A stretch of DNA of 64,000 bases from Aromatoleum diolicum. GTDB taxonomy: Bacteria; Pseudomonadota; Gammaproteobacteria; Burkholderiales; Rhodocyclaceae. The stretch spans positions 1 to 64,000 of the forward strand of contig NZ_WTVQ01000013.1 in NCBI RefSeq assembly GCF_012910955.1, in the 5' to 3' direction. The notes under the pieces are model-generated. The model had not been told where the DNA came from, made no database searches, and saw nothing but the letters and a program-made list of their open reading frames with translations. Of the stretch, positions 12,659-25,154 are shown one piece after another (positions within the stretch are counted from its first letter, which is position 1; the number at the start of each line of letters is the position of its first letter). A program made the translations under genes and the position numbers.

Positions 12659-13120
12659 CTACACGATATTCGCAGCAGCCTGGTGGATGGCGGCGCGAAT
12701 CCGCGGGTACGTGCCGCAGCGGCACAGGTTGCAATCCATCGCTGCATCGATTTCCGCATCCGTCGGTCGCGGCGATTTTTTCAGCAGTGCGCAGGCACTC
12801 ATCAACTGACCGCTCTGGCAGTACCCGCACTGCACGACATCGACCGCCGTAAAGGCTTTGCGCAGCGCATCGGCTTCGCGCCCGGCCACACCCTCGATGG
12901 TGGTGATGGCGTGCTGCCCGGCGATCGCATCCGCGAGCGTCGTGGTACAGGCGCGAACTGCAAGTCCGTCGAGGTGGATGGTGCAGGCGCCGCAAATCCC
13001 GACGCCGCAGCCGTACTTGGTCCCGGTGAGTTTCAGTTCGGCGCGCAGCACCCACAACAGGGGCGTGTCCGCATCCGCCGCGACGTCGAAAGTCTTACCG
13101 TTGATCAGGAGTCTGGGCAT
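12659..13120 (-). CDS. iorA: Isoquinoline 1-oxidoreductase-type alpha subunit, [2Fe-2S] protein
   Basis: This 153-residue protein is the small electron-transfer subunit of a molybdenum hydroxylase. It carries the plant-type ferredoxin motif CGVGICGACTIHLDG with a further cysteine in RACTT, and the second [2Fe-2S] cluster motif CGYCQSGQ...CNLCRCGTY in the C-terminal helical domain. It passes electrons from the molybdenum subunit to an acceptor that is not encoded here. The start lies 26 bp inside the end of iorB, and GGAG sits upstream of the ATG, so the two are translated together. Isoquinoline itself need not be the substrate; family members hydroxylate many N-heterocycles and aldehydes. Confidence 0.9.
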   Translation of the reverse strand: MPRLLINGKTFDVAADADTPLLWVLRAELKLTGTKYGCGVGICGACTIHLDGLAVRACTTTLADAIAGQHAITTIEGVAGREADALRKAFTAVDVVQCGYCQSGQLMSACALLKKSPRPTDAEIDAAMDCNLCRCGTYPRIRAAIHQAAANIV

Positions 13121-15410
13121 GGCAACTCCACTCCGGGGCGGGTTTGAAGCTGAGCGGCAGTGATCGCAAGCGCTCTCCGGTCAGCGCAAACAAGGCGTTG
13201 GCCAATGCCGGCGCGACCGGCGGTGTGCCTGCCTCGCCAACGCCTGCGGGAGGTTCGCTGCTGGGCATGATGTCGGTTTCGATCAGCGGGCACTCACTGA
13301 TGCGCAGGATGTGCTGGTCGCCAAAAGTACTCTGCTTCACTCTCCCGTTCTCAATCGCGATTTCCCCATGGAGCGCGGCACTGAGGCCAAAGACGATCCC
13401 GCTTTCCATCTGCTGCCGGATCAGGTTGGGATTGATCGCAAAGCCGCAGTCGATGACGCACACCACGCGATGCACCCGGATCTGCCGATCCGCATCGACC
13501 GACGCTTCGATCACCTGCGCGACGATGCTGCCGAAGCTCTCGTGCACGGCGACGCCTCGGGCCCTTCTTGGCTCGGGGGGCGCGGAAGCGAGGGGCGTTC
13601 GCCAGTCCGCGAGCGCCGCCGCGCGCTCCAGCACCGCACGATGCCGCGGATGGCGTTTCAGCAAGGACAGACGGAAGTCCACCGGATCCTGGCCGATCGT
13701 TGCGGCCGCTTCATCGAGAAAGGATTCCGTGAAAAAGGCGTGGTGCGAGTGCCCGACGGAACGCCAGAAGCCGATCGGCACCGGCAGATCGACCTTTGCG
13801 TAAGCAACGCGCACGTTCGGCCATTCGTAGGGCAGATCGAAAGCCCCCTCGGATGTCGTCTTGTCCCGGAACGGCCACGGCAGGCCATAGGTGCGCTCGA
13901 GCACCTGCGGAATGATCGACTGCCCGGCCGAAGCATTCCACCACGCCACCAGCCTGCCTTCGCTATCGAAACCGGCCTTGAAGCGCGACACACACGCCGG
14001 GCGGTAGAAGTCGTGCGTGGTGTCTTCCACGCGCGACCACATGGTGTGTACCGGAAGCCCGTCCGCCGCACGGGCAATCGCCGCCGCCTGGGCGATGTAA
14101 TCCACCTCGAGACGGCGCCCGAGGCCGCAGCCGAGCAGCATCACCTGGATGTCGACCCGTTCGGGCCGAAGGCCCAGCACTTTGGCGACCGCGTGCCGCG
14201 CCATCGTCGGCACCTGCGTCGACACCCACACGCTAGCGGCGCCGTCCTTCACCTGGACGGTGCAGTTCATCGGCTCCATCGTCATGTGAGCGAGATACGG
14301 GGCGCGATACTCGGCCTCGATGCGTTTCGTGGCGCCCGCCAACGCGGTCTCGATGTCGCCGGTCTGGTAGTAGGCGCGGCCGTCATGGCTGTCCAGAGTC
14401 CGCGCCAGCTGTTGAAGCACGTCGGCGCTGTTGACGCCGGCCATCGCGCCCTCGTGCCAGGAGATCGGGACGGCATCCAAGGCCTTGGCGGCATGCCAGG
14501 GGCTGTCCGCGATGACGGCGATGCCGGCGGTGCCGCCATGGTAGCCATCGACGGCGAGCACCTTGCGTACGCCGGGAAGGCTGGTCGCACCCGCAGGATC
14601 GAAGCTCGCGACGGTGCCCCCAAGCACCGGGCACATGCGCACGCTCGCGTACAGCAGCCCGTCCGGCAAGGCGTCGATGCCGAACGCCGCACTTCCGTCG
14701 AGCTTGCCCGGACCGTCGATGCGCGGCAGCGGCTTGCCGATCAGCGTGAAGTCCTTGATGTCCTTGAGCGGCGGATGGTCCGGAAGCGGTTGGCGTGCTG
14801 CAGCCCCGGCCAGTTCGCCGAAACCTGCCGACCTTCCCGAAGAGTGGAGGACACGGCCGGACGAAGCGCGACACTGTGCGACCGGCACCCGCCATTGCTC
14901 AGCGGCAGCCGCAATCAGCATGGTGCGTGCGGCCGCGCCCGCTTCGCGCATCGGCAGCCACAGGTCCTTCATGCTGGAGGAACCGCCTGTCGCCATGATG
15001 CCGAACTCGCGCGCGACTTTCGCGGTCATCCAGTCCGCAACGCGTTTGACCGTGCCCGGGTCGTCCGGCCGAAAAGGCAGGCTTTCGACGACGGCGGTGA
15101 TGTTGTTGTAGATCGCGTCGATCGGCGCCATCTCGGTGCGCACGGTCGACCAGTCCGCGTCCATCTCGTCGGCCAGCAGCATCGCCAGCGAGGTCATGAC
15201 GCCCTGCCCCATCTCGCTCTTGGTCAGCATGACGATCACCGCCCCATCCGGGGCGATCTTGACCCAGCCGTTCATGGGCAACTCGCCGCGAGCGCTGGCG
15301 AGCGGTGAAGAGGGGATCATCCGCTGCCTGGGCGGCAAGACGGACCAGCCCACGACAAGGGAACCAACCACCCCGGCTGTTCCGAGAATGAACCGGCGTC
15401 TGCTGACCAT
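13095..15410 (-). CDS. iorB: Isoquinoline 1-oxidoreductase-type beta subunit, molybdopterin-binding, Tat-exported
   Basis: This 771-residue catalytic subunit of a xanthine-oxidase-family enzyme begins with a twin-arginine signal (SRRRFILG followed by a hydrophobic stretch), so the enzyme is probably periplasmic or membrane-attached. Seen motifs include GCGLGRRLEVDYIAQA (cofactor binding), GFWRSVGHSHHAFFTESFLDE and, near the end, the catalytic-glutamate region GVGEAGTPPVAPALANAL. This single-chain form without a cytochrome domain matches IorB rather than the CoxL or XdhB types. GGAG lies 8 bases before the ATG, and a good promoter is seen about 70 bp upstream. The order is large subunit first, then iorA. 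The substrate is unknown. Confidence 0.9.
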   Translation of the reverse strand: MVSRRRFILGTAGVVGSLVVGWSVLPPRQRMIPSSPLASARGELPMNGWVKIAPDGAVIVMLTKSEMGQGVMTSLAMLLADEMDADWSTVRTEMAPIDAIYNNITAVVESLPFRPDDPGTVKRVADWMTAKVAREFGIMATGGSSSMKDLWLPMREAGAAARTMLIAAAAEQWRVPVAQCRASSGRVLHSSGRSAGFGELAGAAARQPLPDHPPLKDIKDFTLIGKPLPRIDGPGKLDGSAAFGIDALPDGLLYASVRMCPVLGGTVASFDPAGATSLPGVRKVLAVDGYHGGTAGIAVIADSPWHAAKALDAVPISWHEGAMAGVNSADVLQQLARTLDSHDGRAYYQTGDIETALAGATKRIEAEYRAPYLAHMTMEPMNCTVQVKDGAASVWVSTQVPTMARHAVAKVLGLRPERVDIQVMLLGCGLGRRLEVDYIAQAAAIARAADGLPVHTMWSRVEDTTHDFYRPACVSRFKAGFDSEGRLVAWWNASAGQSIIPQVLERTYGLPWPFRDKTTSEGAFDLPYEWPNVRVAYAKVDLPVPIGFWRSVGHSHHAFFTESFLDEAAATIGQDPVDFRLSLLKRHPRHRAVLERAAALADWRTPLASAPPEPRRARGVAVHESFGSIVAQVIEASVDADRQIRVHRVVCVIDCGFAINPNLIRQQMESGIVFGLSAALHGEIAIENGRVKQSTFGDQHILRISECPLIETDIMPSSEPPAGVGEAGTPPVAPALANALFALTGERLRSLPLSFKPAPEWSCHAQTPDQR

Positions 15411-16348: not shown

Positions 16349-16963
16349 TCACGCGAGCACGTTGAGTGTTTCCGGTGTCCGCCGATCGAGCGGCCTGCCG
16401 ACCGTCAGCGCCTCCCGAAGCACGGCATCCATCGCGCCGAAAGGCGAATCGCCGAGTACGCCTAGCGCATCAAGCAGCTTGGTGAAGAAGGCTCGCCCGG
16501 CGGAGGTCGCGACGATGTCGAAGATCTCCGGATCGCTCATGCCGCAGGCGCGCAGTTCGTCGATGTCGCTCTGCGTGACGGTGGTCGCGTCCCGCGCCAC
16601 CTTGCGCGAAAAATCCATCATGGCCCGCTCGGCAGGGCTCAAGCCGGGCGCATCGCCGCCCTCGGCCATCGCCTGCACTTCGGCCGGCGGGAAGAACTGG
16701 GTGAGCGCTTTGCCGTGGGCCAGAGCGCAGGCACTGTTGCGCAATTCGTGCGCGGCAGCGAAGGTGACGAGCTCGAAGCGCCGGGCGTCCATGGGGCGGC
16801 GGATCTCCGCCAGCAGGCGGCCCCAGCGCGCGAGCACTTCGGGTCGGTGGCTGAACACCTTGGCGTAGTTCGGCACGTACCCCCACGAGCCCTGCTGGCG
16901 CTCGTACATCGCACGCACTTCGTCCTGCGCGTCGTCCGGGGCAATGGTCTCGATGTAGGCCAT
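16349..16963 (-). CDS. AhpD-like / carboxymuconolactone decarboxylase family protein
   Basis: The 204-residue all-helical protein has the AhpD-like core ELVTFAAAHELRNSACALAHG, with E73, C79 and H83 in the places used by the family's proton relay. The first cysteine of the classic CxxC pair is replaced (N76), leaving a single cysteine, as in the so-called peroxidase-related subgroup. A disulfide-based peroxidase activity is therefore doubtful. It starts 12 bp after the stop of the dioxygenase gene and is the last gene of the leftward cysteine synthase-dioxygenase arm, so a shared pathway is likely. The exact reaction is unknown. Confidence 0.82.
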   Translation of the reverse strand: MAYIETIAPDDAQDEVRAMYERQQGSWGYVPNYAKVFSHRPEVLARWGRLLAEIRRPMDARRFELVTFAAAHELRNSACALAHGKALTQFFPPAEVQAMAEGGDAPGLSPAERAMMDFSRKVARDATTVTQSDIDELRACGMSDPEIFDIVATSAGRAFFTKLLDALGVLGDSPFGAMDAVLREALTVGRPLDRRTPETLNVLA

Positions 16964-16975
16964 GATGGCGTCTCC

Positions 16976-17923
16976 TTAGAGGGTGTAGTCGGCGAGCTGC
17001 ACTTCCTCGCCCAGATCGGTGTAGTCGCCGGCCGCGCGCCGTGACCGAAACTCGCCCCAATTGATGGCGCGGTAGCGTGGGGGATGTGCGGCATCGACGG
17101 TGCTCTGCAGCGGCGCATAGTCGGTGGCGTACGCCGGGCAGTAGAAGAAGGGGGCGCTATAGCGCGGCCGGCTCGTGTTCGCGAGCACGCGGTGCAGGGC
17201 TGCGGGGTAACGGTCGTTCGACCAGACCTGCACCACGTCGCCGATATTCACCACGAGGGCGCCTGCGAGCGGCTCGACGAGGTACCAGCGCCCGTCGCGA
17301 AAGACTTCCAGCCCGGGTTGTTCGTCCTGCAGCAACAAGGTGAGGGCGCCGGAGTCGGTGTGGTGATTGACGCCCAGGTAGCCGTGTTCGGGCGTGTGCA
17401 CGCCTTCGGGCCGCGCCGGCTCCGGGCACGGAGGGTAATAGTTCAGGCGCACGAAGCTCGTCTGCAAGGCGCCGAAGGCGGGACGGAGTTGCCCCGGTGC
17501 CATCCCCAGATTCACGCCGATCGCGTCGATGAGGCGTGCCGCCAGCGCGGCGCAGGCGGCGTAGTAGCGGCGCACGGCGAGTTCGAAACCGGGGAGTTCG
17601 GCAGGCCACTGGGGGCGTTGCCGGGCGCCGTCGGGCGGTCCGAAATCGAAGATCTGCTTCCAGTCGCGGGTGTTCTTGGTCAATTCGCGGTCGAAGAAGC
17701 CCCACGGGTTGTCGGCGCTGCGGGCGATGCGCTGCTTGTCCGCTGCGGGCAGGGCAAAGAGGCGATGCGCGGCGTCGAGCAGGTCGCGGAGCAGGCGCTC
17801 GTCGATGCCGTGGGCGGTGACCTGGAAGAAGCCCCATTCGCGGCAGGCGCAGTCGAGCGCGCGCAGGGTCGCGGGGTCGTCGAGCCGCGTCAGGTCGAGG
17901 ACGGGTACATGCATGCCATTCAT
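16976..17923 (-). CDS. Isopenicillin-N-synthase-like 2-oxoglutarate/Fe(II) dioxygenase
   Basis: This 315-residue protein has both parts of the IPNS/2OG oxygenase family: the N-terminal DIOX_N region (VPVLDLTRLDD, REWGFFQVTAHGI) and the C-terminal double-stranded beta-helix. The iron ligands are H188 and D190 in NHHTDSG and H244 in ALHRVL, and the oxoglutarate-binding pair R254 and S256 in SRPRYSAPFFY. It therefore should be an active hydroxylase/oxidase acting on a small molecule; the substrate is unknown. The ATG at 17923 has AAGGAG 8 bases upstream. It lies 17 bp downstream of the cysteine synthase fusion and 12 bp before the AhpD-like gene. The frame is open far upstream, but that part is antisense to its neighbour's code. 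Confidence 0.9.
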   Translation of the reverse strand: MNGMHVPVLDLTRLDDPATLRALDCACREWGFFQVTAHGIDERLLRDLLDAAHRLFALPAADKQRIARSADNPWGFFDRELTKNTRDWKQIFDFGPPDGARQRPQWPAELPGFELAVRRYYAACAALAARLIDAIGVNLGMAPGQLRPAFGALQTSFVRLNYYPPCPEPARPEGVHTPEHGYLGVNHHTDSGALTLLLQDEQPGLEVFRDGRWYLVEPLAGALVVNIGDVVQVWSNDRYPAALHRVLANTSRPRYSAPFFYCPAYATDYAPLQSTVDAAHPPRYRAINWGEFRSRRAAGDYTDLGEEVQLADYTL

Positions 17924-17940
17924 GTCGGCGCTCCTTCTTT

Positions 17941-19434
17941 TCAGGCCGTCTTGCGCGGCTGTAGCCACTTGGGGAACAGGCTGTAGGGGTCGATATCGAC
18001 GTTCGCGTCGTAGCCGATCGCGTGTGCCGCGAGCCGCCGTTGCAGCGAACCGTCGCGCACGGCATCGAACAGTTCGGTGCATCCGCCGATGTGCTCGCCG
18101 CCCACGTAGATCTGCGGGATGGTCGGGCTGCCGGTGCGCTGCGCCAGCACGGCGCGGATCTTTCCACCCAGGTCGCCGCCCTGGTATTCGACCGAGTCGA
18201 GATCGACGCTTCGATAGGCGATCCCCATGCGCTTGAAGAGCTTGCGCACCGACCAACAGAACTCGCACCACTCCAGCGCGAAGAGGAGCACCGGCTCGTC
18301 CCGGACGAGCGCCGTGACCATCGCGTCTGCCGCGGGGTCGAGCGCGGGCGCGGGCCGCACCGGCCGGGGTATGGCCGGGCAGGCGGCCGGGCTGTCGAAG
18401 CGGTAACCCGGCGTCGAGCGCGAGAGTTCGATCTCCGCTTCGTCCATCTCCTCGCCGATGCCCTCGAACAGCGGGGTCGACAGGTAGCGTTCGCCGGTAT
18501 CCGGCAGCATGCACACGATGTTGCTCCCGGCCGGCGCCCGCTGTGCGACCGCGAGGGCGGCGGCGAGGGTTGCGCCGCTCGACGTGCCGACGAAGATGCC
18601 TTCGCGCCGGGCGAGGGCGCGTGCGGTGCGGATGGCGTCGTCGCCCGCCACCGGGACGATCTCGTCCACGAGGCACTCGGCCACGGCCGATTCGGTCAGC
18701 CGTGACACGAAATCCGGGCTCCAGCCCTGCATCAAGTGCGGGCGGAACTTGGGATGGCTGCCCGACGGCGCGCCGTCGGCCGCGCGCGGCTGCGGGATGC
18801 CGCTCGCCAGGACGGGCGAGTTGTCCGGTTCTGCGACCACGATGCGCGTGGATGCGCCTGCGCCCTTCAAGCCGCGCGCCACCCCGAGCAGGGTGCCGCC
18901 CGTGCCGAATCCGGAGACGAAGTAGTCGAGCGATTCGTCGCGGAAATCGTCCAGCAGCTCGCGGGCCGTCGTGCGGGTATGGACTTCGGCATTGGCGTCG
19001 TTGTCGAACTGGCGGCAAAGGTAGTAGCCATGCGCCCTGGCCAGTTCCACGGCCTTGTTGAGCATGCCGGTGCCCTTCTCTGACGCCGGGGTCAGGACCA
19101 CTTTCGCGCCCAGGAAGCGCAGCATCTTGCGCCGTTCGACGCTGAAGTTCTCCGCCATGACGATTACCAGCGGGTAGCCGCGCTGTGCGCACACCATCGC
19201 CAGGCCGATGCCGGTGTTGCCGCTGGTCGCCTCGATGACGGTTTGGCCGGGCTTGAGTTCGCCGCTGCGTTCCGCGTGCTCGATCACCGCCAGGGCCATG
19301 CGGTCCTTTACCGAGCCCATGGGGTTGAAGGACTCGACCTTGACGTACAGGTTGACGCCAGCCGGTGCCAGCTTCTGCAAGCGGACGAGCGGGGTGCGCC
19401 CGATCGTCTGCAGGATGTTGTCGTACTTTGCCAT
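17941..19434 (-). CDS. Cysteine synthase (CysK-like) fused to a C-terminal glutaredoxin domain
   Basis: Residues 1 to about 350 form a PLP-dependent cysteine synthase/cystathionine beta-synthase fold: the lysine that binds PLP is K43 in NPMGSVKDR, the substrate loop is TSGNTG (70-75), and GTGGTLLGVARGLK and GIFVGTSSGA bind cofactor phosphate and nucleophile. Residues about 370-475 form a glutaredoxin-like domain with C390 and C393 (WCEFCWS), a TIPQIYVGGEHIGG cis-proline and glutathione region, and a short tail. Such a protein would make cysteine or a cysteine analogue and directly reduce or transfer a thiol. The ATG at 19434 has GAGGAGAG upstream. First gene of the leftward arm, divergent from the BTAD regulator. 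Confidence 0.9.
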   Translation of the reverse strand: MAKYDNILQTIGRTPLVRLQKLAPAGVNLYVKVESFNPMGSVKDRMALAVIEHAERSGELKPGQTVIEATSGNTGIGLAMVCAQRGYPLVIVMAENFSVERRKMLRFLGAKVVLTPASEKGTGMLNKAVELARAHGYYLCRQFDNDANAEVHTRTTARELLDDFRDESLDYFVSGFGTGGTLLGVARGLKGAGASTRIVVAEPDNSPVLASGIPQPRAADGAPSGSHPKFRPHLMQGWSPDFVSRLTESAVAECLVDEIVPVAGDDAIRTARALARREGIFVGTSSGATLAAALAVAQRAPAGSNIVCMLPDTGERYLSTPLFEGIGEEMDEAEIELSRSTPGYRFDSPAACPAIPRPVRPAPALDPAADAMVTALVRDEPVLLFALEWCEFCWSVRKLFKRMGIAYRSVDLDSVEYQGGDLGGKIRAVLAQRTGSPTIPQIYVGGEHIGGCTELFDAVRDGSLQRRLAAHAIGYDANVDIDPYSLFPKWLQPRKTA

Positions 19435-19555
19435 CGCTCTCTCCTCGCCATTCGGGGTCTTGCTGGAGGCCATGCTGGTGGGGCACCGATGGAGCGAGCG
19501 TTGAAACAAGCGTGGTTTTTTGCGGGGGAGGGGCATCGCGGGGCTGTCGGCTTGC

Positions 19556-19583
19556 TTGTAGTGTCTGCAGCGACTCCTATAGT
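19556..19583 (+). promoter_or_regulatory. Possible promoter of the BTAD regulator gene
   Basis: TTGTAG (19556-19561), 16-base spacer, TATAGT (19578-19583), 36 bases before the ATG at 19620. It lies in the 185-bp gap shared with the divergent cysteine synthase gene, where a common operator would be expected. No clear inverted repeat was found there. Confidence 0.4.
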
Positions 19584-19619
19584 GGGAATCGTCGGAAGGT
19601 TTTTCCACGCGCAGGGCTC

Positions 19620-22598
19620 ATGCTTGAACTCAAATTCCTCGGCGAATTCGGAGTGATCCGCGACGGGCTGGCCTTGCCTTTGCCGCCGTCCAAGAAGACA
19701 CGCGCCTTGCTTGCCTACCTGAGCCTGCATGGCAGGCGGCTGCGCCGCGAGAGCCTGTGCGAGTTGTTGTGGGAGGTTCCCGACGACCCGCGCGGCTCGC
19801 TGCGCTGGAGCCTGTCAAAACTGCGCCGGCTACTGGAGGATGGCGACCGGGAACGCATCCGCGCCGACCGCAGCCATGTGGAAATCGACCCGGAAGGGAT
19901 CGACGTGGACGCCGTGCGGCTGCAGGCCCTGGCGGCTGATGATCCGAACCGGCTGTCCACCGAATCGTTGGAGCAAGCGGCGGCCGACTACGCCGGCACC
20001 TTTCTCGAGGGCCTGGAGTTTTCGGATTTCCACAACTTCCACGCGTGGTGCATCGCGGAGCGCGAGCGCATCACGCGGGCGCAGACGACCGTGCTGCGGG
20101 AACTGGTACGCCGTCTCGCTGGCGAACCGGAGCGCGCGTTGGCTCATGCGCGCGAGCTCGTGTGCCTGTCACCCTATGACGAGGCGGCGCGCGCGGCCTT
20201 GATTCGCCTGCTGGTGGCAGCCCACCACATCGATGAAGCGGACCGTCAACTCCAGCTCGGCATGCGCATGCTGAAGGAAGCCGGGATCACGTCCACGGGC
20301 GCCTTGCGCGAGGCTCGGCAGGGGAGCGGAAATGCGCCCGATGCGGCTGCGGACCGGGCGGCGGCGGTCGCGCCCGTGCGCACGGCTCGTCCGCTGTCCG
20401 CGGATCGCCGGCTCGTCGGACGTCGCGAGGAGCAGGCGATACTCGCTGCTGCATGGGAGGAGGCCGCGGCCGGTCGTGGGGAACTGGTCCTTCTGCGCGG
20501 CGACCCTGGCCTGGGCAAGTCCTGCCTGATGGACTGCATGCGCGCCCGCGTGCGTGAGGAGGGGGCGCTGGTGCTGTCCGCGTGCGCCTTCGAGGCCGAT
20601 CAGATCCGGCCCTTTGCCCTGTGGATGGACGCGCTCCGCACCGGTCTGCCGGACGCCGCCGAGAGCGTGTTCGGCAGCGGCATTGCGCAGAATCGCGAGT
20701 CGCTGCTGGCCCGGATCGGCGAGCTCGTCGCTGCCGAGGCGGGGCGCCGGCCGGTCATGCTGCAGTTCGACGATGTGCATTGGGCCGACGAGTCGAGCGT
20801 CGCGGCCTTGCACTACGTGCTGCGCCTGAACCGCGAGCGGCCCGTGCTCGCCGTTCTCGCGGCCCGCGAATCGGAGATGCGCGACAACGTGGCGCTGCAG
20901 CAGGCCCTGCGGAGCCTGCGTCGCGAGGGGGTGCTGCGCGAATTGCGTCTCGGGCCGATGCCGGCCGAAGACATCGAGGCACTCGTCCGCGTGAGGGCGG
21001 CTGGTGTAGATGGTGCGCGCCTGAGCCGGGAGTGCGGGGGCAATCCGCTGCTGGCCCTGGAACTCGCGCGCGCGGAAGCCGACGGCGGCGGGGAGACGGG
21101 CGGTTCGATCCTCGAACTGGTGCAGGAGCGTCTGGCGCGCTTCGACCCCGATGGCGCCGACGTGCTGCGGTGGGCCGCCGTCCTGGGATGCGTCGTGAAT
21201 GTTCCGGCCTTGCTGAGCGTCAGCGGACTGGATGCGAGCGTGGTCAGCCGGGCGCTGGAGGAGGCGGAGCGGCAGGCCATTCTCGTGTCGGGCGAGCGTG
21301 GCCTGCGTTTTGCCCATGAACTCATCGTGCGAGCGATTTACACCGACATCTCGCCGGTGCGCCGGCAGATCATGCATCGCAAGGTGGCGAGTTGGCTCGA
21401 ACAGGACGAGAGCTTCGAGCTTGCGCGCGCGGCCGACCTCGCCCATCACGCGTCCCTGAGCGGGGATGCCGGTCTTGCGGCGCGGGCGATGGTGTCGGCG
21501 GGCAAGCTGTGCCTCAGGTTCTTTGCCAACGAGGACGCCCAGTCCCTTGCCCGCAAGGGACTGCAGCTGGCCGAGCAATTGCCCGCAGCCGAACAGGTTC
21601 GTGTCGTCATCGATCTGCACGACGTGCTGCTGTCGGCGGCGCCCCTGCAGGACTGGGAGGGCGAGGCGGAGCGCTACACCCGGTTGGCCGAATGCGCCCT
21701 CGACCACGGCGCTTCGGCGCACGCCCGGCGGGCCTACTACATGGCCGCCTCCGTGCGCTGGCAGCACGGCCAATGGGCGGAGGCCCGGGAGCAATCGCTG
21801 CAGTCGGAGCGGGTCGCACGCAGCGGTGGAGATCACGAACATATCATCGGCCTGGCCGAAACCGCGAAATGCCTGGTGCTGCTGGAGCGCGACCTGTCGC
21901 AGGCCGACGCGATGCTGATGGAGGCCCAGGCGCGCGCCAAGCGCGGACAGTTCGCCCATCATGCGATTCCCGCGGGAATCGGCATGCTCCGTTTCTACGA
22001 GAATCGCATGGACGAAGCGGAAGAACTGCTCAAGCACGCCCGCACGCTGTGCAAGTGGGCCGGCGACCGCCTCGTCGAGTATCAGGTGGACGAATACCTG
22101 GCGATGATCGACATCCAGCGCGGCCGCTTCGAGGACGCCACGCGCCGTTGCCAGGATCTGGTGACGCTCGGCAACAAGATTCGCGATGGCAGCGAAGCCC
22201 CCTTCGCGCGTGCCTTGCTCGGGCTGTGCACGTTCGCGCGCGACGACGACCCGGCCCCGCTGGATGCGGCCCTGGTGGATCTGCGGCTGGCTGATGCCAA
22301 GCATCGTCTCGCGTACGCGCAGACGCGCGCGGCGATGCTCGATTGCCAGCGCGGCCGGCACGACCGCGGCGCGGTGCGCGCGCAGGAGGCGCTCGCCTGT
22401 GCGGAAGTCCTCGAGCGGGCGACGGAGATGCTGCTTGCACATGCCGTGCTGGCGCAGTGCTGTAGCGCCGAGGGCGAAAACGCGACGGCGCGCCTGCATG
22501 CCGACGCGGTGGCGAGGCTGCAGGCCGCGGGGGTGGCTGCCTGGGCGGAGGACATCGCCCGGCGCGTGACCGGACCGGCGGAGGCCGCCGATGGTTGA
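19620..22598 (+). CDS. BTAD-domain / AAA-ATPase transcriptional regulator (SARP/MalT-like, STAND type)
   Basis: The 992-residue protein opens with a winged-helix DNA-binding region (1-100; MLELKFLGEFGVIRDG, RGSLRWSLSKLRRLLED), then a BTAD helical-repeat domain (about 105-235), an AAA/NACHT-like module with Walker A GDPGLGKS (294-301) and Walker B VMLQFDDVHWAD (about 379-390), and a long helical TPR-like C-terminus rich in alanine, leucine and glutamate. The layout fits STAND signal-switch regulators that sense a ligand and activate nearby genes. These are best known from actinomycetes and less common in proteobacteria. It is divergent from the cysteine synthase fusion gene and overlaps the next gene by 8 bp. 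The target and ligand are inference. Confidence 0.87.
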   Translation: MLELKFLGEFGVIRDGLALPLPPSKKTRALLAYLSLHGRRLRRESLCELLWEVPDDPRGSLRWSLSKLRRLLEDGDRERIRADRSHVEIDPEGIDVDAVRLQALAADDPNRLSTESLEQAAADYAGTFLEGLEFSDFHNFHAWCIAERERITRAQTTVLRELVRRLAGEPERALAHARELVCLSPYDEAARAALIRLLVAAHHIDEADRQLQLGMRMLKEAGITSTGALREARQGSGNAPDAAADRAAAVAPVRTARPLSADRRLVGRREEQAILAAAWEEAAAGRGELVLLRGDPGLGKSCLMDCMRARVREEGALVLSACAFEADQIRPFALWMDALRTGLPDAAESVFGSGIAQNRESLLARIGELVAAEAGRRPVMLQFDDVHWADESSVAALHYVLRLNRERPVLAVLAARESEMRDNVALQQALRSLRREGVLRELRLGPMPAEDIEALVRVRAAGVDGARLSRECGGNPLLALELARAEADGGGETGGSILELVQERLARFDPDGADVLRWAAVLGCVVNVPALLSVSGLDASVVSRALEEAERQAILVSGERGLRFAHELIVRAIYTDISPVRRQIMHRKVASWLEQDESFELARAADLAHHASLSGDAGLAARAMVSAGKLCLRFFANEDAQSLARKGLQLAEQLPAAEQVRVVIDLHDVLLSAAPLQDWEGEAERYTRLAECALDHGASAHARRAYYMAASVRWQHGQWAEAREQSLQSERVARSGGDHEHIIGLAETAKCLVLLERDLSQADAMLMEAQARAKRGQFAHHAIPAGIGMLRFYENRMDEAEELLKHARTLCKWAGDRLVEYQVDEYLAMIDIQRGRFEDATRRCQDLVTLGNKIRDGSEAPFARALLGLCTFARDDDPAPLDAALVDLRLADAKHRLAYAQTRAAMLDCQRGRHDRGAVRAQEALACAEVLERATEMLLAHAVLAQCCSAEGENATARLHADAVARLQAAGVAAWAEDIARRVTGPAEAADG

Positions 22599-23124
22599 AC
22601 TCTTCCTGGAACGGGATTTCTTTCCGCCGGTGAGCCACGCGAACCTCCACGCGGCGTGGAGCGGCGCACTGGATTGTTCCCGCATGCATCGGGTCGAATG
22701 GCGCGGCAGCCTGCTGTCGCTAGATGGCCGCAAACTGGTGTGCAACTTCCGCGCGCCGGATGCGGAGTCGGTGCGGATCGTCTTGCGCAGCGGCGGTGCC
22801 GACGTTCGCCGCTTGTGGCCGGGAACCGTGCACGATGCGCCGACCCTTGAACGCTTCACCGCGGACTCCGCCAACGTACTCGTGCGCCGCTCGTTCGCCC
22901 AGCCCGTCGAGGTCGCCGACATCCAGGCCAGGGAGGACGCAGCGGCTTGGTGCCTCGACGTGCGCCATGTGAAATTCGTGCGCACCTGCTTCTCCACGGA
23001 CCGCACGCGCATGCTGTGCCTCTACCGCGCACCCGATGCCGAGTCGGTGCGCGAAGCGCAGCGCACCGCCGCGATGCCGATGGACGACGTCTGGGGCTTT
23101 ACCGCGCTGCTGCCGGACGCCTGA
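22591..23124 (+). CDS. Protein with two tandem DUF4242-like domains
   Basis: The 177-residue product is an internal duplication. The first half (about 1-85) contains CSRMHRVEWRGSLLSLDGRKL and CNFRAPDAESVR; the second (about 95-177) contains DVRHVKFVRTCFSTDRTRML and CLYRAPDAESVR. Both match the small ferredoxin-fold DUF4242 family, whose studied member (SCO4226) binds nickel. The exact repeat of RAPDAESVR shows the duplication directly. No catalytic role is known, so a ligand or metal carrier is a guess. It overlaps the regulator's stop by 8 bp, so it is made together with it and may be a sensor partner. A 159-bp gap follows before the OsmC-like gene. Confidence 0.72.
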   Translation: MVELFLERDFFPPVSHANLHAAWSGALDCSRMHRVEWRGSLLSLDGRKLVCNFRAPDAESVRIVLRSGGADVRRLWPGTVHDAPTLERFTADSANVLVRRSFAQPVEVADIQAREDAAAWCLDVRHVKFVRTCFSTDRTRMLCLYRAPDAESVREAQRTAAMPMDDVWGFTALLPDA

Positions 23125-23283
23125 GGCGGCGTTCCGCAGTTGCGCGCGGATTCCACGCGCCTCGTGTCCTGCCGGCTGCAAATACCACGGCCGTTCTCAC
23201 GCTGTCTCCAACGTCACGGGCGGAAAGTCCGTCTTGCCTGATGTGCGATCGGGCAAACCCAACAGACTTTCAGGAGACAGGAA

Positions 23284-23847
23284 ATGGACGCTCAAACACA
23301 ACTGCGTGTCGACAACGGCATCAACGTCGAAGCCTTGCTCGGTGCCCGCGAAGCGCTCAGCAAAATGCCGGAAGCGGCCCGCTTCAACTGGCGTGCCACC
23401 TGCGAGTGGGTCAACGGCACCCACGCGCGTTCGACCATCGACAGCTTCTTCGGCCTGGGTGAGGAGCAGATGCACCGCATGGCGCACCGCATCGACAGCG
23501 ATCACCCGGAGCTCTTCGCCGCCGAAGATCATGGCGCGACACCGGTCGAGATCGTTCTGGCGGGGCTGGCCGGCTGCCTGACGGCGGGGATCGCGGCAGT
23601 CGCCCAGAACCGCAACATCCAGCTCCGTTCGGTGAAGGCCACCCTGGAGGCCGGCATGGACCTGCAGGGGATCCTGGGCATCGACGGCGACGTGCGCAAC
23701 GGCTTCGACGGCGTAAAGGTGATTTTCGACATCGACGCGGACGCCACCCGCGAGGAAATCGAAGCCCTGGTGGCGCAGTCGCAGAAGCGCTCGGCGGTGT
23801 TCGACATCTTCACCAATCCGACCGACGTATCGGTCATGGTGTCATGA
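23284..23847 (+). CDS. OsmC-family protein
   Basis: The 187-residue protein shows the OsmC/Ohr fold: a strand-rich N-terminal half with the long helix DHGATPVEIVLAGLAGCLTAGI carrying the reactive cysteine C98, and the C-terminal motif QKRSAVFDIFTNPTDV. In peroxide-reducing OsmC/Ohr proteins a second cysteine sits in the latter motif; here the place is S170, so a standard two-cysteine peroxidase cycle is not available. It may use an external thiol such as the glutaredoxin domain encoded nearby, or do something else. AGGAGA lies upstream of the ATG. It overlaps the next gene as ATGA, so the pair is coupled. Confidence 0.85.
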   Translation: MDAQTQLRVDNGINVEALLGAREALSKMPEAARFNWRATCEWVNGTHARSTIDSFFGLGEEQMHRMAHRIDSDHPELFAAEDHGATPVEIVLAGLAGCLTAGIAAVAQNRNIQLRSVKATLEAGMDLQGILGIDGDVRNGFDGVKVIFDIDADATREEIEALVAQSQKRSAVFDIFTNPTDVSVMVS

Positions 23848-25154
23848 ACGCGGCGGCCTTTGCCGCCGGATCGCTGCAGGTCGGCGCCGTCGATGTCGTC
23901 ATCGTCGGTGCCGGCCATAGCGGCTTGGCGATGAGCCACTGTCTCGCAGGGCGTGGCATCGACCACGTGGTCCTGGAACGCGGGGAGGTTGCGAACGCGT
24001 GGCACCACGAGCGCTGGGACTCGCTGCGCCTCCTCACACCCAACTGGCTCACTCGCTTGCCGGGGATGGCCTATGACGGCGAGGATCCGGACGGATACAT
24101 GGGGCGTGACGAAGTGGCGGCCTTCATCACCCGCTACGCCCGGACCAGCGGGGCACCGGTGCGCACGGGCACGACGGTCACGGCGATGACAGCCGAGGGC
24201 ACGGGCTACCGTGTCGAGACCGATCGCGGGCGCTGGCGCTGCCGCGCGGTGGTCGTGGCGAGCGGCGCCTTTGGGCGGCCGTGTGTGCCGCGGCTCGGTG
24301 CCGCACTGCCCGAGGGCGTTGCGCAGCTCACGCCCTACCAGTACCGCAATCCGGATCAGATCGAGCCGGGCGGGGTGCTGGTGGTCGGCGCATCGGCGAC
24401 CGGCTTGCAGTTGGCCAACGAACTGCAGCGCGCAGGACACCCGGTCACGCTCGCCGTCGGCGAGCACGTGCGCATGCCGCGGGTCTATCGCGGGCGGGAC
24501 ATCCAGTGGTGGATGCATGCGGCGGGCATTCTCGATCAGCGCTACGACGCACAGGACGACCTCAGCCGCGCCCGCGGCGTCGCCTCGCCGCAACTGATCG
24601 GATCCCGCGAGCGGGCAATCATGGACCTCAATGCGCTCACCGCCGGCGGCGCGCGCCTCGTCGGTCGCGTGGCCAACGTCAACGACGGAAAGGTGCAGTT
24701 CTCCGGGTCGCTACGCAACGTGTGCGCCCTGGCCGACCTGAAGATGGGGCGCCTGCTCGCGACGATCGATGCGTGGGCTGCCGCTCATGCGGACGGCGGA
24801 TCGCTCCCGCCCGCCGAACGCTTCGACGCGACTCACCTGCCGGACAAACCGACCCTCGGCCTGGACCTGAAGCGGGACGGCATCCGCACCGTGGTCTGGG
24901 CGACCGGCTTCAAGCCGGATTACTCGTGGCTGAAGGTGCCCGTCCTCGACCCCAAAGAGAACATCCGTCACAACGGCGGTGTCGCCGACGCCCCAGGCCT
25001 GTATGTGATGGGGCTGCCTTTCCTGCGGCGGCGCAAGTCGAGCTTCATCCACGGTGCCGGGGATGACGCTAATGACTTGGCAACGCACCTGTCCGGCTAT
25101 CTCGATGCCATCTCGGACCAATGCGGACGGACGCGTTTCGAATGCACCTCCTGA
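23844..25154 (+). CDS. FAD/NAD(P)-dependent oxidoreductase, flavin monooxygenase-like
   Basis: The 436-residue protein has two dinucleotide-binding sites, GAGHSG (22-27) for FAD and GASATG (182-187) for NAD(P)H, and the ATG motif VVWATGFKPDY near residue 355, the standard set of group B flavin monooxygenases (CzcO/FMO-like). The canonical FMO signature FxGxxxHxxxF is not obvious, so an S- or N-oxygenase, a Baeyer-Villiger type or a plain oxidoreductase are all possible. Its ATG overlaps the OsmC stop. It is the last gene of the rightward arm. Given the cysteine synthase and thiol-type neighbours, oxidation of a sulfur compound is a reasonable but untested guess. Confidence 0.85.
   Translation: MNAAAFAAGSLQVGAVDVVIVGAGHSGLAMSHCLAGRGIDHVVLERGEVANAWHHERWDSLRLLTPNWLTRLPGMAYDGEDPDGYMGRDEVAAFITRYARTSGAPVRTGTTVTAMTAEGTGYRVETDRGRWRCRAVVVASGAFGRPCVPRLGAALPEGVAQLTPYQYRNPDQIEPGGVLVVGASATGLQLANELQRAGHPVTLAVGEHVRMPRVYRGRDIQWWMHAAGILDQRYDAQDDLSRARGVASPQLIGSRERAIMDLNALTAGGARLVGRVANVNDGKVQFSGSLRNVCALADLKMGRLLATIDAWAAAHADGGSLPPAERFDATHLPDKPTLGLDLKRDGIRTVVWATGFKPDYSWLKVPVLDPKENIRHNGGVADAPGLYVMGLPFLRRRKSSFIHGAGDDANDLATHLSGYLDAISDQCGRTRFECTS

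Follow-up and report, generated by a model that had tools for sequence, protein, structure and literature searches.

Architecture of the gene set

The window analysed here is a 64,000-nucleotide stretch of the Aromatoleum diolicum genome (contig NZ_WTVQ01000013.1, positions 1 to 64,000), and it contains a set of seven genes in two divergent arms around a shared gap (16349..25154, approximately 8 kb). Profile matches confirm the seven genes, the two arms, their span and the 185-bp length of the gap, all of which a sequence-only reading of this DNA had proposed. The genes and control features are as follows.

16349..16963, minus strand: AhpD/CMD-like protein, 204 aa (Pfam CMD, 7.6e-06)
16976..17923, minus strand: Fe(II)/2-oxoglutarate dioxygenase of the IPNS/DIOX_N class, an optional member (2OG-FeII_Oxy, 1.4e-31)
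17941..19434, minus strand: CysK-type pyridoxal phosphate (PLP) enzyme fused to a dithiol glutaredoxin (CysK-Grx; CEFC; PALP 8.9e-77, Glutaredoxin 1.8e-15)
19435..19619, no strand: shared promoter gap, exactly 185 bp
19485..19519, minus strand: predicted operator 1, a triple direct repeat with a 12-bp period, in the shared gap upstream of cysK-grx
19555-19583, BTAD arm: -35-like CTTGTA and -10-like TATAGT, 17 bp apart, by consensus resemblance alone
19620..22598, plus strand: BTAD/STAND regulator, 992 aa, with an N-terminal winged helix-turn-helix (wHTH)-BTAD region, AAA_16 (3.7e-20) and a TPR-like part
22591..23124, plus strand: double DUF4242 (SCO4226-like) protein, 177 aa (8.7e-23, two stretches)
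23181..23215, plus strand: predicted operator 2, a triple repeat of the operator 1 kind, upstream of osmC
23284..23847, plus strand: OsmC-family protein (2.8e-16)
23844..25154, plus strand: flavin-dependent oxidoreductase (FMO; Pyr_redox_3 6.9e-25)

The first Met of the dioxygenase lies at 17923, and overlaps of 8 bp and 4 bp join BTAD to DUF4242 and OsmC to FMO, respectively. Both arms had been described as tightly packed. The gene set and the shared gap agree with that description, but the plus arm is interrupted before osmC by a 159-bp gap (23125-23283) that carries its own predicted operator, so that this arm does not form a single compact unit. The host belongs to the proteobacteria; an actinomycete origin was rejected because the named relatives are proteobacterial. 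A conserved -35/-10 pair for the BTAD promoter was likewise rejected, as the pair is exact in the window and L009, has one mismatch in L045 and has at least three in the rest; the TATAG part alone looks kept across the other BTAD promoter gaps. An imperfect inverted repeat at 23234-23256, between operator 2 and osmC, is largely kept in G010 and is possibly a hairpin or a second control site. A search of the window for an RNA element or a tRNA insertion site found no tRNA and no Rfam family reaching its gathering score. Near the set, and outside it, lies a gene for a molybdopterin-binding large subunit of the xanthine dehydrogenase family (13095-15410).

Distribution across genomes

A scan for the CysK-Grx fusion returned at least 590 stretches, of which 566 were confirmed, and the locus counts given here rest on the best 80 of the 566. 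Because our own open reading frame (ORF) caller missed genes, the set genes were counted by tblastn. OsmC and FMO are both found within the fetched DNA of 34 of these 80 loci, the AhpD relative in 36, and BTAD with DUF4242 in 26; several further loci are cut contigs. The two arms belong together, as had been expected: OsmC and FMO accompany 24 of the 26 BTAD/DUF4242 loci, and the other two (L010 and L015) are cut by the contig end. The dioxygenase is present in 13 of the 34 OsmC-FMO loci, and in two of the 21 without it (L042 and L064) the DNA ends there. The core of the set is OsmC, the flavin oxygenase, the CysK-glutaredoxin fusion and a one-cysteine AhpD relative, with the dioxygenase as an optional member. 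This set recurs in Rhodocyclales, Halomonas, Marinobacter, Parahaliea and one myxobacterial metagenome-assembled genome, and its recurrence in synteny across many genomes is more than chance would give.

In a CysK-Grx tree of 84 rows, from which partial rows were dropped, the rows linked to the set group together (6 changes, compared with a mean of 28.3 in 500 shuffles, none of which was as low). L006 and L024 lie near the base of this tree, and the genomes of three exceptions (L087, L034 and L027) hold OsmC and BTAD elsewhere. OsmC is present in 8 of the 19 genomes queried.

The gene block also looks, from its DNA, like a portable cassette, because similarity to three relatives stops at its borders. 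Comparison of the window with 19.9-21.5 kb around the relatives' loci, which covered a few kilobases of flank per relative, gives one DNA match each, ending at the locus borders (16349-25112 for G010, 16383-25109 for G011 and 16382-25109 for L011); the cut contig L010 gives a single partial match. The GC content is 0.683 inside the locus and 0.642 and 0.615 on its two sides. Of 17 genomes from the genus, 3 hold an OsmC of the set type. When 369 genomes were drawn evenly from the class, 9 of them, including G000, had full CysK-Grx fusions and only G000 and G274 (2 of 369) had a close OsmC relative, which marks the cassette as rare and scattered.

Several neighbouring arrangements were observed. 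A major facilitator superfamily (MFS) transporter gene recurs in eight Halomonadaceae loci, always running in the opposite direction to the AhpD gene. It adjoins that gene in L018, L023, L046 and L073 and lies farther away in L016, L019, L020 and L021. A second CysK-Grx module (L113 6132-11449, L062 and L081) contains a Trans_reg_C-TPR regulator, a DsrE-like protein and a group II PLP decarboxylase, and both modules are carried by G011 and the Marinobacter genome G477. The themes of the two modules are joined on the Novosphingobium plasmid pLA3 (L006 1968-14912), where genes for OsmC, two flavin enzymes, a truncated haemoglobin, a cyclase, a kinase-like ATP-binding protein and a response regulator accompany CysK-Grx and a PLP decarboxylase, with adjoining arsenic genes. 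On a Rhodobacter plasmid (L197 8172-13421), a Trans_reg_C-TPR regulator is divergent from OsmC, FMO and a second flavin adenine dinucleotide (FAD) monooxygenase.

A predicted triple-repeat operator precedes both arms

Alignment of the gaps between cysK and BTAD reveals one conserved block. A 40-bp matrix was iterated from the window site and trained on 26 such gaps of 60-420 bp (the window and 25 loci). All 26 contain a CACG-type triple direct repeat, and in leave-one-out scoring the true gap exceeds the best of 200 base shuffles in every case; the gaps of loci without this BTAD contain none (0 of 5), with scores far below zero. The cysK-side site ends 40-60 bp before the cysK start in 21 of the 26 and is also present in the longer gaps of L014, L017 and L025, which lay outside the training set. 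The matrix, trained on the cysK gaps alone, also locates a site upstream of osmC, at a distance of 59-106 bp, in 25 of 25 BTAD loci (window included). Five later loci have the osmC site as well, at 69-96 bp (scores 15.6 to 32.8); those of L193 and L194 (16.5 and 15.6) are under the threshold of 18, with the repeat in place when scored without it. For random 200-bp stretches, the best score has a median of -19 and a 99th percentile of about -1.5. A set of 49 control loci (859 kb) yields one match at threshold, in L027, and both BTAD and OsmC are present in the genome of that locus.

The self-identity of the sites is 0.577 at a lag of 12, compared with 0.15-0.34 at other lags from 6 to 17. The first repeat carries ACG in 26/26 cysK sites and 25/25 osmC sites, and the second in all cysK sites and 92% of osmC sites. 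The third repeat distinguishes the two: ACG is found in all osmC sites and in no cysK site, where tCG predominates. The mean frequency of the commonest base is 0.80 in the motif columns and 0.39 and 0.47 in the flanks, which argues that operator conservation is not due to shared gap ancestry alone.

At the genome scale, a strict form of the pattern has one exact match in G000, in the cysK gap, and with up to 3 mismatches gives 37 matches, compared with 40 for a reversed control. Across 17 genomes of the genus, exact matches occur solely in the three that bear the locus. A widened pattern describing both site types, built from sites of the same loci and applied to 24 genomes picked for holding the locus, recovers both sites in 24/24 and none elsewhere in 20/24. 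The remaining four have one or two extra sites, that of L045 inside the locus, and the reversed control gives 6 matches in all 24 genomes together. A strong third operator copy is seen in L017 (20361-20395), about 9-10 kb from the set; by eye, the product of the gene beside it resembles an alpha/beta hydrolase that retains a BTAD-like remnant at its N-terminus.

Regulator and operator change together

In four loci (L041, L056, L066 and L078), both arms are kept, BTAD and DUF4242 are absent, and two tandem Trans_reg_C-type regulator genes follow the AhpD relative. According to Pfam, one of the L078 regulators is a Trans_reg_C-NB-ARC protein and the other matches OmpR-type and AfsR models. In all four gaps the CACG motif is absent and TGAAG stands at three places 11 bp apart. 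L033 has a different BTAD-type regulator and no operator match, L006 and L064 have cyclase-type genes nearby, and no regulator was identified at the L026, L035, L044 and L049 loci. Since the loci differ in regulator yet keep the enzymes, the enzyme core appears to stay constant while one large signal-transduction protein takes the place of another. The joint change of regulator and operator offers a compact example of regulatory rewiring around such a core.

Because the same repeats stand at both promoters and the operator changes with the regulator, both arms very likely form one dedicated regulon, as far as can be judged from sequence. The earlier proposal that the arms are co-regulated is thereby upheld, and we regard it as highly probable; the same repeat before cysK-grx and osmC suggests that the BTAD protein is probably responsible, and its predicted action at both operators is well supported.

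The regulator and the double DUF4242 protein

The window regulator matches AAA_16 with 73.5 bits (gathering score 32.6), and this domain is found in all seven regulator proteins given. For the BTAD domain the outcome is divided: the Pfam BTAD model is matched at gathering by four of six orthologues (L024, L029, L031 and L037, and not L011 or L012), but the window regulator itself falls below this model even at E values up to 1. BTAD and DUF4242 occur together in 26/26 loci whose contig extends past BTAD and are both absent from 10/10 other OsmC-FMO loci. BTAD stands without DUF4242 in L009, L025 and L028 alone, where the contigs end inside BTAD, and no DUF4242 without BTAD was seen among the best 80 of the 566 CysK-Grx loci.

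In an alignment of 27 double DUF4242 proteins, C29 and C51 are invariant and C121 and C143 nearly so. L043 is without the second pair; one count of relatives excluded matches with <38% identity or <60% coverage, and hence this protein. Cys and acidic residues are among the side chains conserved best. The fold is ferredoxin-like, and the NCBIfam SCO4226 model scores 19.7 bits against a cut-off of 125, for which reason a role as nickel sensor was rejected. A PDB sequence search with window protein P0005 gave no match up to E 0.1. Based on the co-occurrence, the gene overlap and the conserved Cys residues, the double DUF4242 protein is a candidate sensor partner of the BTAD regulator. A further DUF4242-like stretch is observed downstream of FMO in L012, L013, L042, L045 and L059.

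Enzymes and accessory proteins

The core proteins belong to thiol- or redox-type families. The CysK part passes the cut-off of the cysK equivalog TIGR01139 (362 vs 350.95 bits) and lies below that of the CysM model TIGR01138 (246.9 vs 394.2 bits). Its best solved relative is the O-ureido-L-serine synthase DcsD (304.8 bits), compared with 272.9 bits for the best cysteine synthase. The AlphaFold2 model of the fusion has a mean predicted local distance difference test (pLDDT) score of 85.8, and its alignment (A2) comprises 48 rows, all CysK-Grx. OsmC has a single conserved Cys (C98, 38/38 rows). The AhpD relative scores 78.1 bits with TIGR01926 (cut-off 81.8). C79 and H83 are present in 35/35 of its aligned rows and E64 in 32/35, which we take to be the AhpD pattern; position 76 is N, S or H in 35/35 rows and Cys in none, so that one conserved Cys (C79) is kept and the first Cys of the CxxC is lost. 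The flavin enzyme matches TIGR04046 (the MSMEG_0569 family) over its full length with 344.4 bits, below the cut-off of 498.35, and its N-terminal half is SMFMO/ArsO-like and resembles 4usq/4a9w. In the dioxygenase, HTD...H and RxS are kept in 19/19 aligned rows.

Proposed function and alternative explanations

The best explanation for this set, to which we assign a probability of roughly 0.5, is a portable dedicated stress regulon that would defend cytosolic thiols. Its assignment to thiol, electrophile or reactive-sulfur defence, drawn from the protein families and from the analogy with allicin resistance, is about equally probable, and the most likely trigger would be an electrophile or a reactive sulfur species. 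The BTAD/STAND regulator is predicted to act at two operators, the first ahead of cysK-grx(-dioxygenase)-ahpD and the second ahead of osmC-fmo. The double DUF4242 protein may sense the trigger or gate the regulator, perhaps via its paired cysteines, and the activated regulator would turn on both arms. The CysK domain could then convert O-acetylserine to cysteine or S-sulfocysteine, and the fused glutaredoxin, with glutathione, could reduce S-sulfocysteine or mixed disulfides; E. coli glutaredoxins reduce S-sulfocysteine, according to PMC3528435. The targets of OsmC and the one-cysteine AhpD relative would be peroxides or thiol adducts, and the flavin enzyme would oxygenate a sulfur- or carbonyl-containing product.

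Several observations weigh against a dedicated thiol-defence regulon of this kind. As regards regulation, the loci are orthologous, so that common descent accounts for part of the motif conservation; the window's operator 2 has 2 mismatches to the strict pattern, like two other places in G000; the window regulator falls short of the Pfam BTAD model; and L035 (9923; G450) has both operators with no BTAD match in the genome. As regards the gene set, Lysobacter L047 and L069 lie inside the CysK clade of the set in genomes where neither OsmC nor BTAD gave a match, and OsmC was likewise not matched in the assemblies behind four set-type loci on cut contigs (L009, L015, L025 and L030). OsmC-FMO lies ~270 and ~160 kb from CysK-Grx in G473 and G475 (record coordinates), with no BTAD, DUF4242 or operator beside OsmC, and in G475 the AhpD relative adjoins OsmC-FMO. 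Arms in unrelated places, which the sequence-only reading had named as refuting its proposal, are thus seen in two genomes, G473 and G475; OsmC and FMO accompany BTAD and DUF4242 in 24/26 loci. OsmC-FMO also stands without CysK-Grx in the fetched stretches of G274, the Rhodobacter plasmid L197 and Nonomuraea L198, and CysK-Grx is absent from the whole G274 genome. As CysK-Grx is not beside OsmC-FMO in these five cases, the enzymes need not act together. Finally, the AhpD relative is without the CxxC disulfide of true AhpD, and the 2-oxoglutarate dioxygenase and FMO give no clear pointer to thiol defence.

The sequence-only reading had proposed a locus that makes, modifies or detoxifies a cysteine- or thiol-derived small molecule. 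In a pathway of synthesis, the product of the CysK domain would be a beta-substituted alanine, comparable to the O-ureidoserine formed by DcsD; the dioxygenase and flavin enzyme would tailor it, and the glutaredoxin would keep a thiol intermediate reduced. The closest solved relative of the CysK part (304.8 vs 272.9 bits), the two oxygenases, the recurring MFS transporter in eight Halomonadaceae loci and the PLP decarboxylase that adjoins CysK-Grx in other contexts are consistent with this pathway, as is the fact that BTAD/SARP regulators often control secondary metabolism. However, the CysK part exceeds the cysK equivalog cut-off and has two inserts that are absent from DcsD, and the MFS gene is on the opposite strand and adjoins the set in 4 loci only. 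The seven genes include no ligase, carrier protein or other core assembly enzyme and no transporter; around the set, neighbouring genes were sought with an ORF caller that missed some. The dioxygenase is optional, missing from 21 of 34 loci, and the OsmC-FMO pair is found without CysK-Grx alongside, both of which weaken the case for a single biosynthetic pathway. Of the earlier proposal, thiol chemistry as the common theme is supported and synthesis of a cysteine-derived molecule is not supported; we consider the pathway unlikely, and thiol/electrophile or reactive-sulfur defence fits better.

An inducible thiosulfate-to-cysteine route, in which CysK would form S-sulfocysteine and the glutaredoxin would release cysteine and sulfite as a response to sulfur source, follows the logic of the fusion and the glutaredoxin chemistry cited above. 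This route is decidedly improbable: the CysK part scores as CysK rather than CysM (362 vs 247 bits), the seven genes include no sulfur transporter or sulfate-assimilation gene, and OsmC, FMO and AhpD have no place in it. Cyanide or nitrile detoxification, with CysK as cyanoalanine synthase, would draw on the full-length TIGR04046 match (344 bits), as MSMEG_0569-type flavin enzymes are found in nit1C nitrilase clusters. That score falls short of the cut-off (498), the seven genes include neither a nitrilase nor a nitrile hydratase, and we hold the proposal to be very improbable. In addition, the word OsmC is absent from the main text of the paper on the cyanide-using strain CECT5344 (PMC8567248). 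A response to nickel or another metal sensed by the DUF4242 protein is the least probable, given the SCO4226 score of 19.7 bits against 125, conserved side chains that include Cys and acidic residues, and a set of seven genes in which neither a metal transporter nor a metallochaperone is encoded.

With thiol defence under one regulator, a group of odd neighbours would become a testable regulon in which two operators serve five target genes besides the regulator pair, and which is present in culturable strains of Halomonas, Marinobacter and Parahaliea. Such a regulon suggests that activators of the actinomycete style can govern a stress response of their own in proteobacteria; it also offers a possible role for DUF4242, a family of which little is understood, and a context for testing what the widespread CysK-glutaredoxin fusion does. 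More tentatively, and with rather more doubt than confidence, DUF4242 and the BTAD/STAND ATPase may constitute a new two-protein unit, in which a cysteine-paired sensor gates a SARP-like activator that drives an undescribed class of electrophile or reactive-sulfur defence, and which other large regulators can replace, with a different repeat operator in the shared gap.

Comparison with known systems

No description of this set was found in the open-access literature searched. None of the families is new; their combination, the operator and the pairing of BTAD with DUF4242 appear to be undescribed within that literature.

The individual proteins each share features with a characterized relative and differ from it. 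The CysK part resembles DcsD/CysK, its closest solved structure by sequence, in its CysK fold and its SGNTG and NPxGSVKDR stretches, but it carries two inserts, one of about 16 residues and one of about 4, and ends in a glutaredoxin. The DUF4242 protein shares a ferredoxin-like unit with the SCO4226 nickel-binding protein; in contrast, it has two units per chain and conserved Cys pairs, and it scores below the family cut-off. The flavin enzyme is like the MSMEG_0569 family and SMFMO in its full-length TIGR04046 match and its 4usq/4a9w-like N-terminal half, and unlike the former in its score below the cut-off and in the lack of a nitrilase gene in the set. The regulator is similar to the AfsR-type SARP/BTAD-STAND regulators of actinomycetes, with BTAD in 4/6 orthologues, AAA_16 and direct repeats at its predicted targets. 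It differs in being proteobacterial, apparently dedicated to two operators and paired with a double DUF4242 protein. The SARP repeat period is 11 bp, and that of the cassette operator is 12 bp.

As a whole, the cassette can be compared with the allicin/thiosulfinate clusters, namely the PfAR-1 islands of Pseudomonas and alt of Pantoea, which are likewise compact accessory sets with OsmC, AhpD, thiol-redox and flavin enzymes; the likeness of OsmC and AhpD to those of the alt/alr clusters is at the family level only. According to PMC7119367, osmC and ahpD stand together with thiol-redox genes and Oye on the islands that confer allicin resistance, single-gene tests of one resistance clone give ahpD by far the strongest effect, and the mechanism of ahpD in allicin resistance is called unclear. 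Unlike the alt/alr clusters, the cassette has no dsbA, trx, oye, sdr, gor or kef among its seven genes, and it holds CysK-Grx, FMO and double DUF4242. The alt regulator is the TetR-type AltR with an inverted repeat, according to PMC13178969, whereas the cassette has a BTAD/STAND protein with direct repeats. By this analogy, the reading that fits better is that the cassette would work like the allicin-tolerance clusters and is not one of them.

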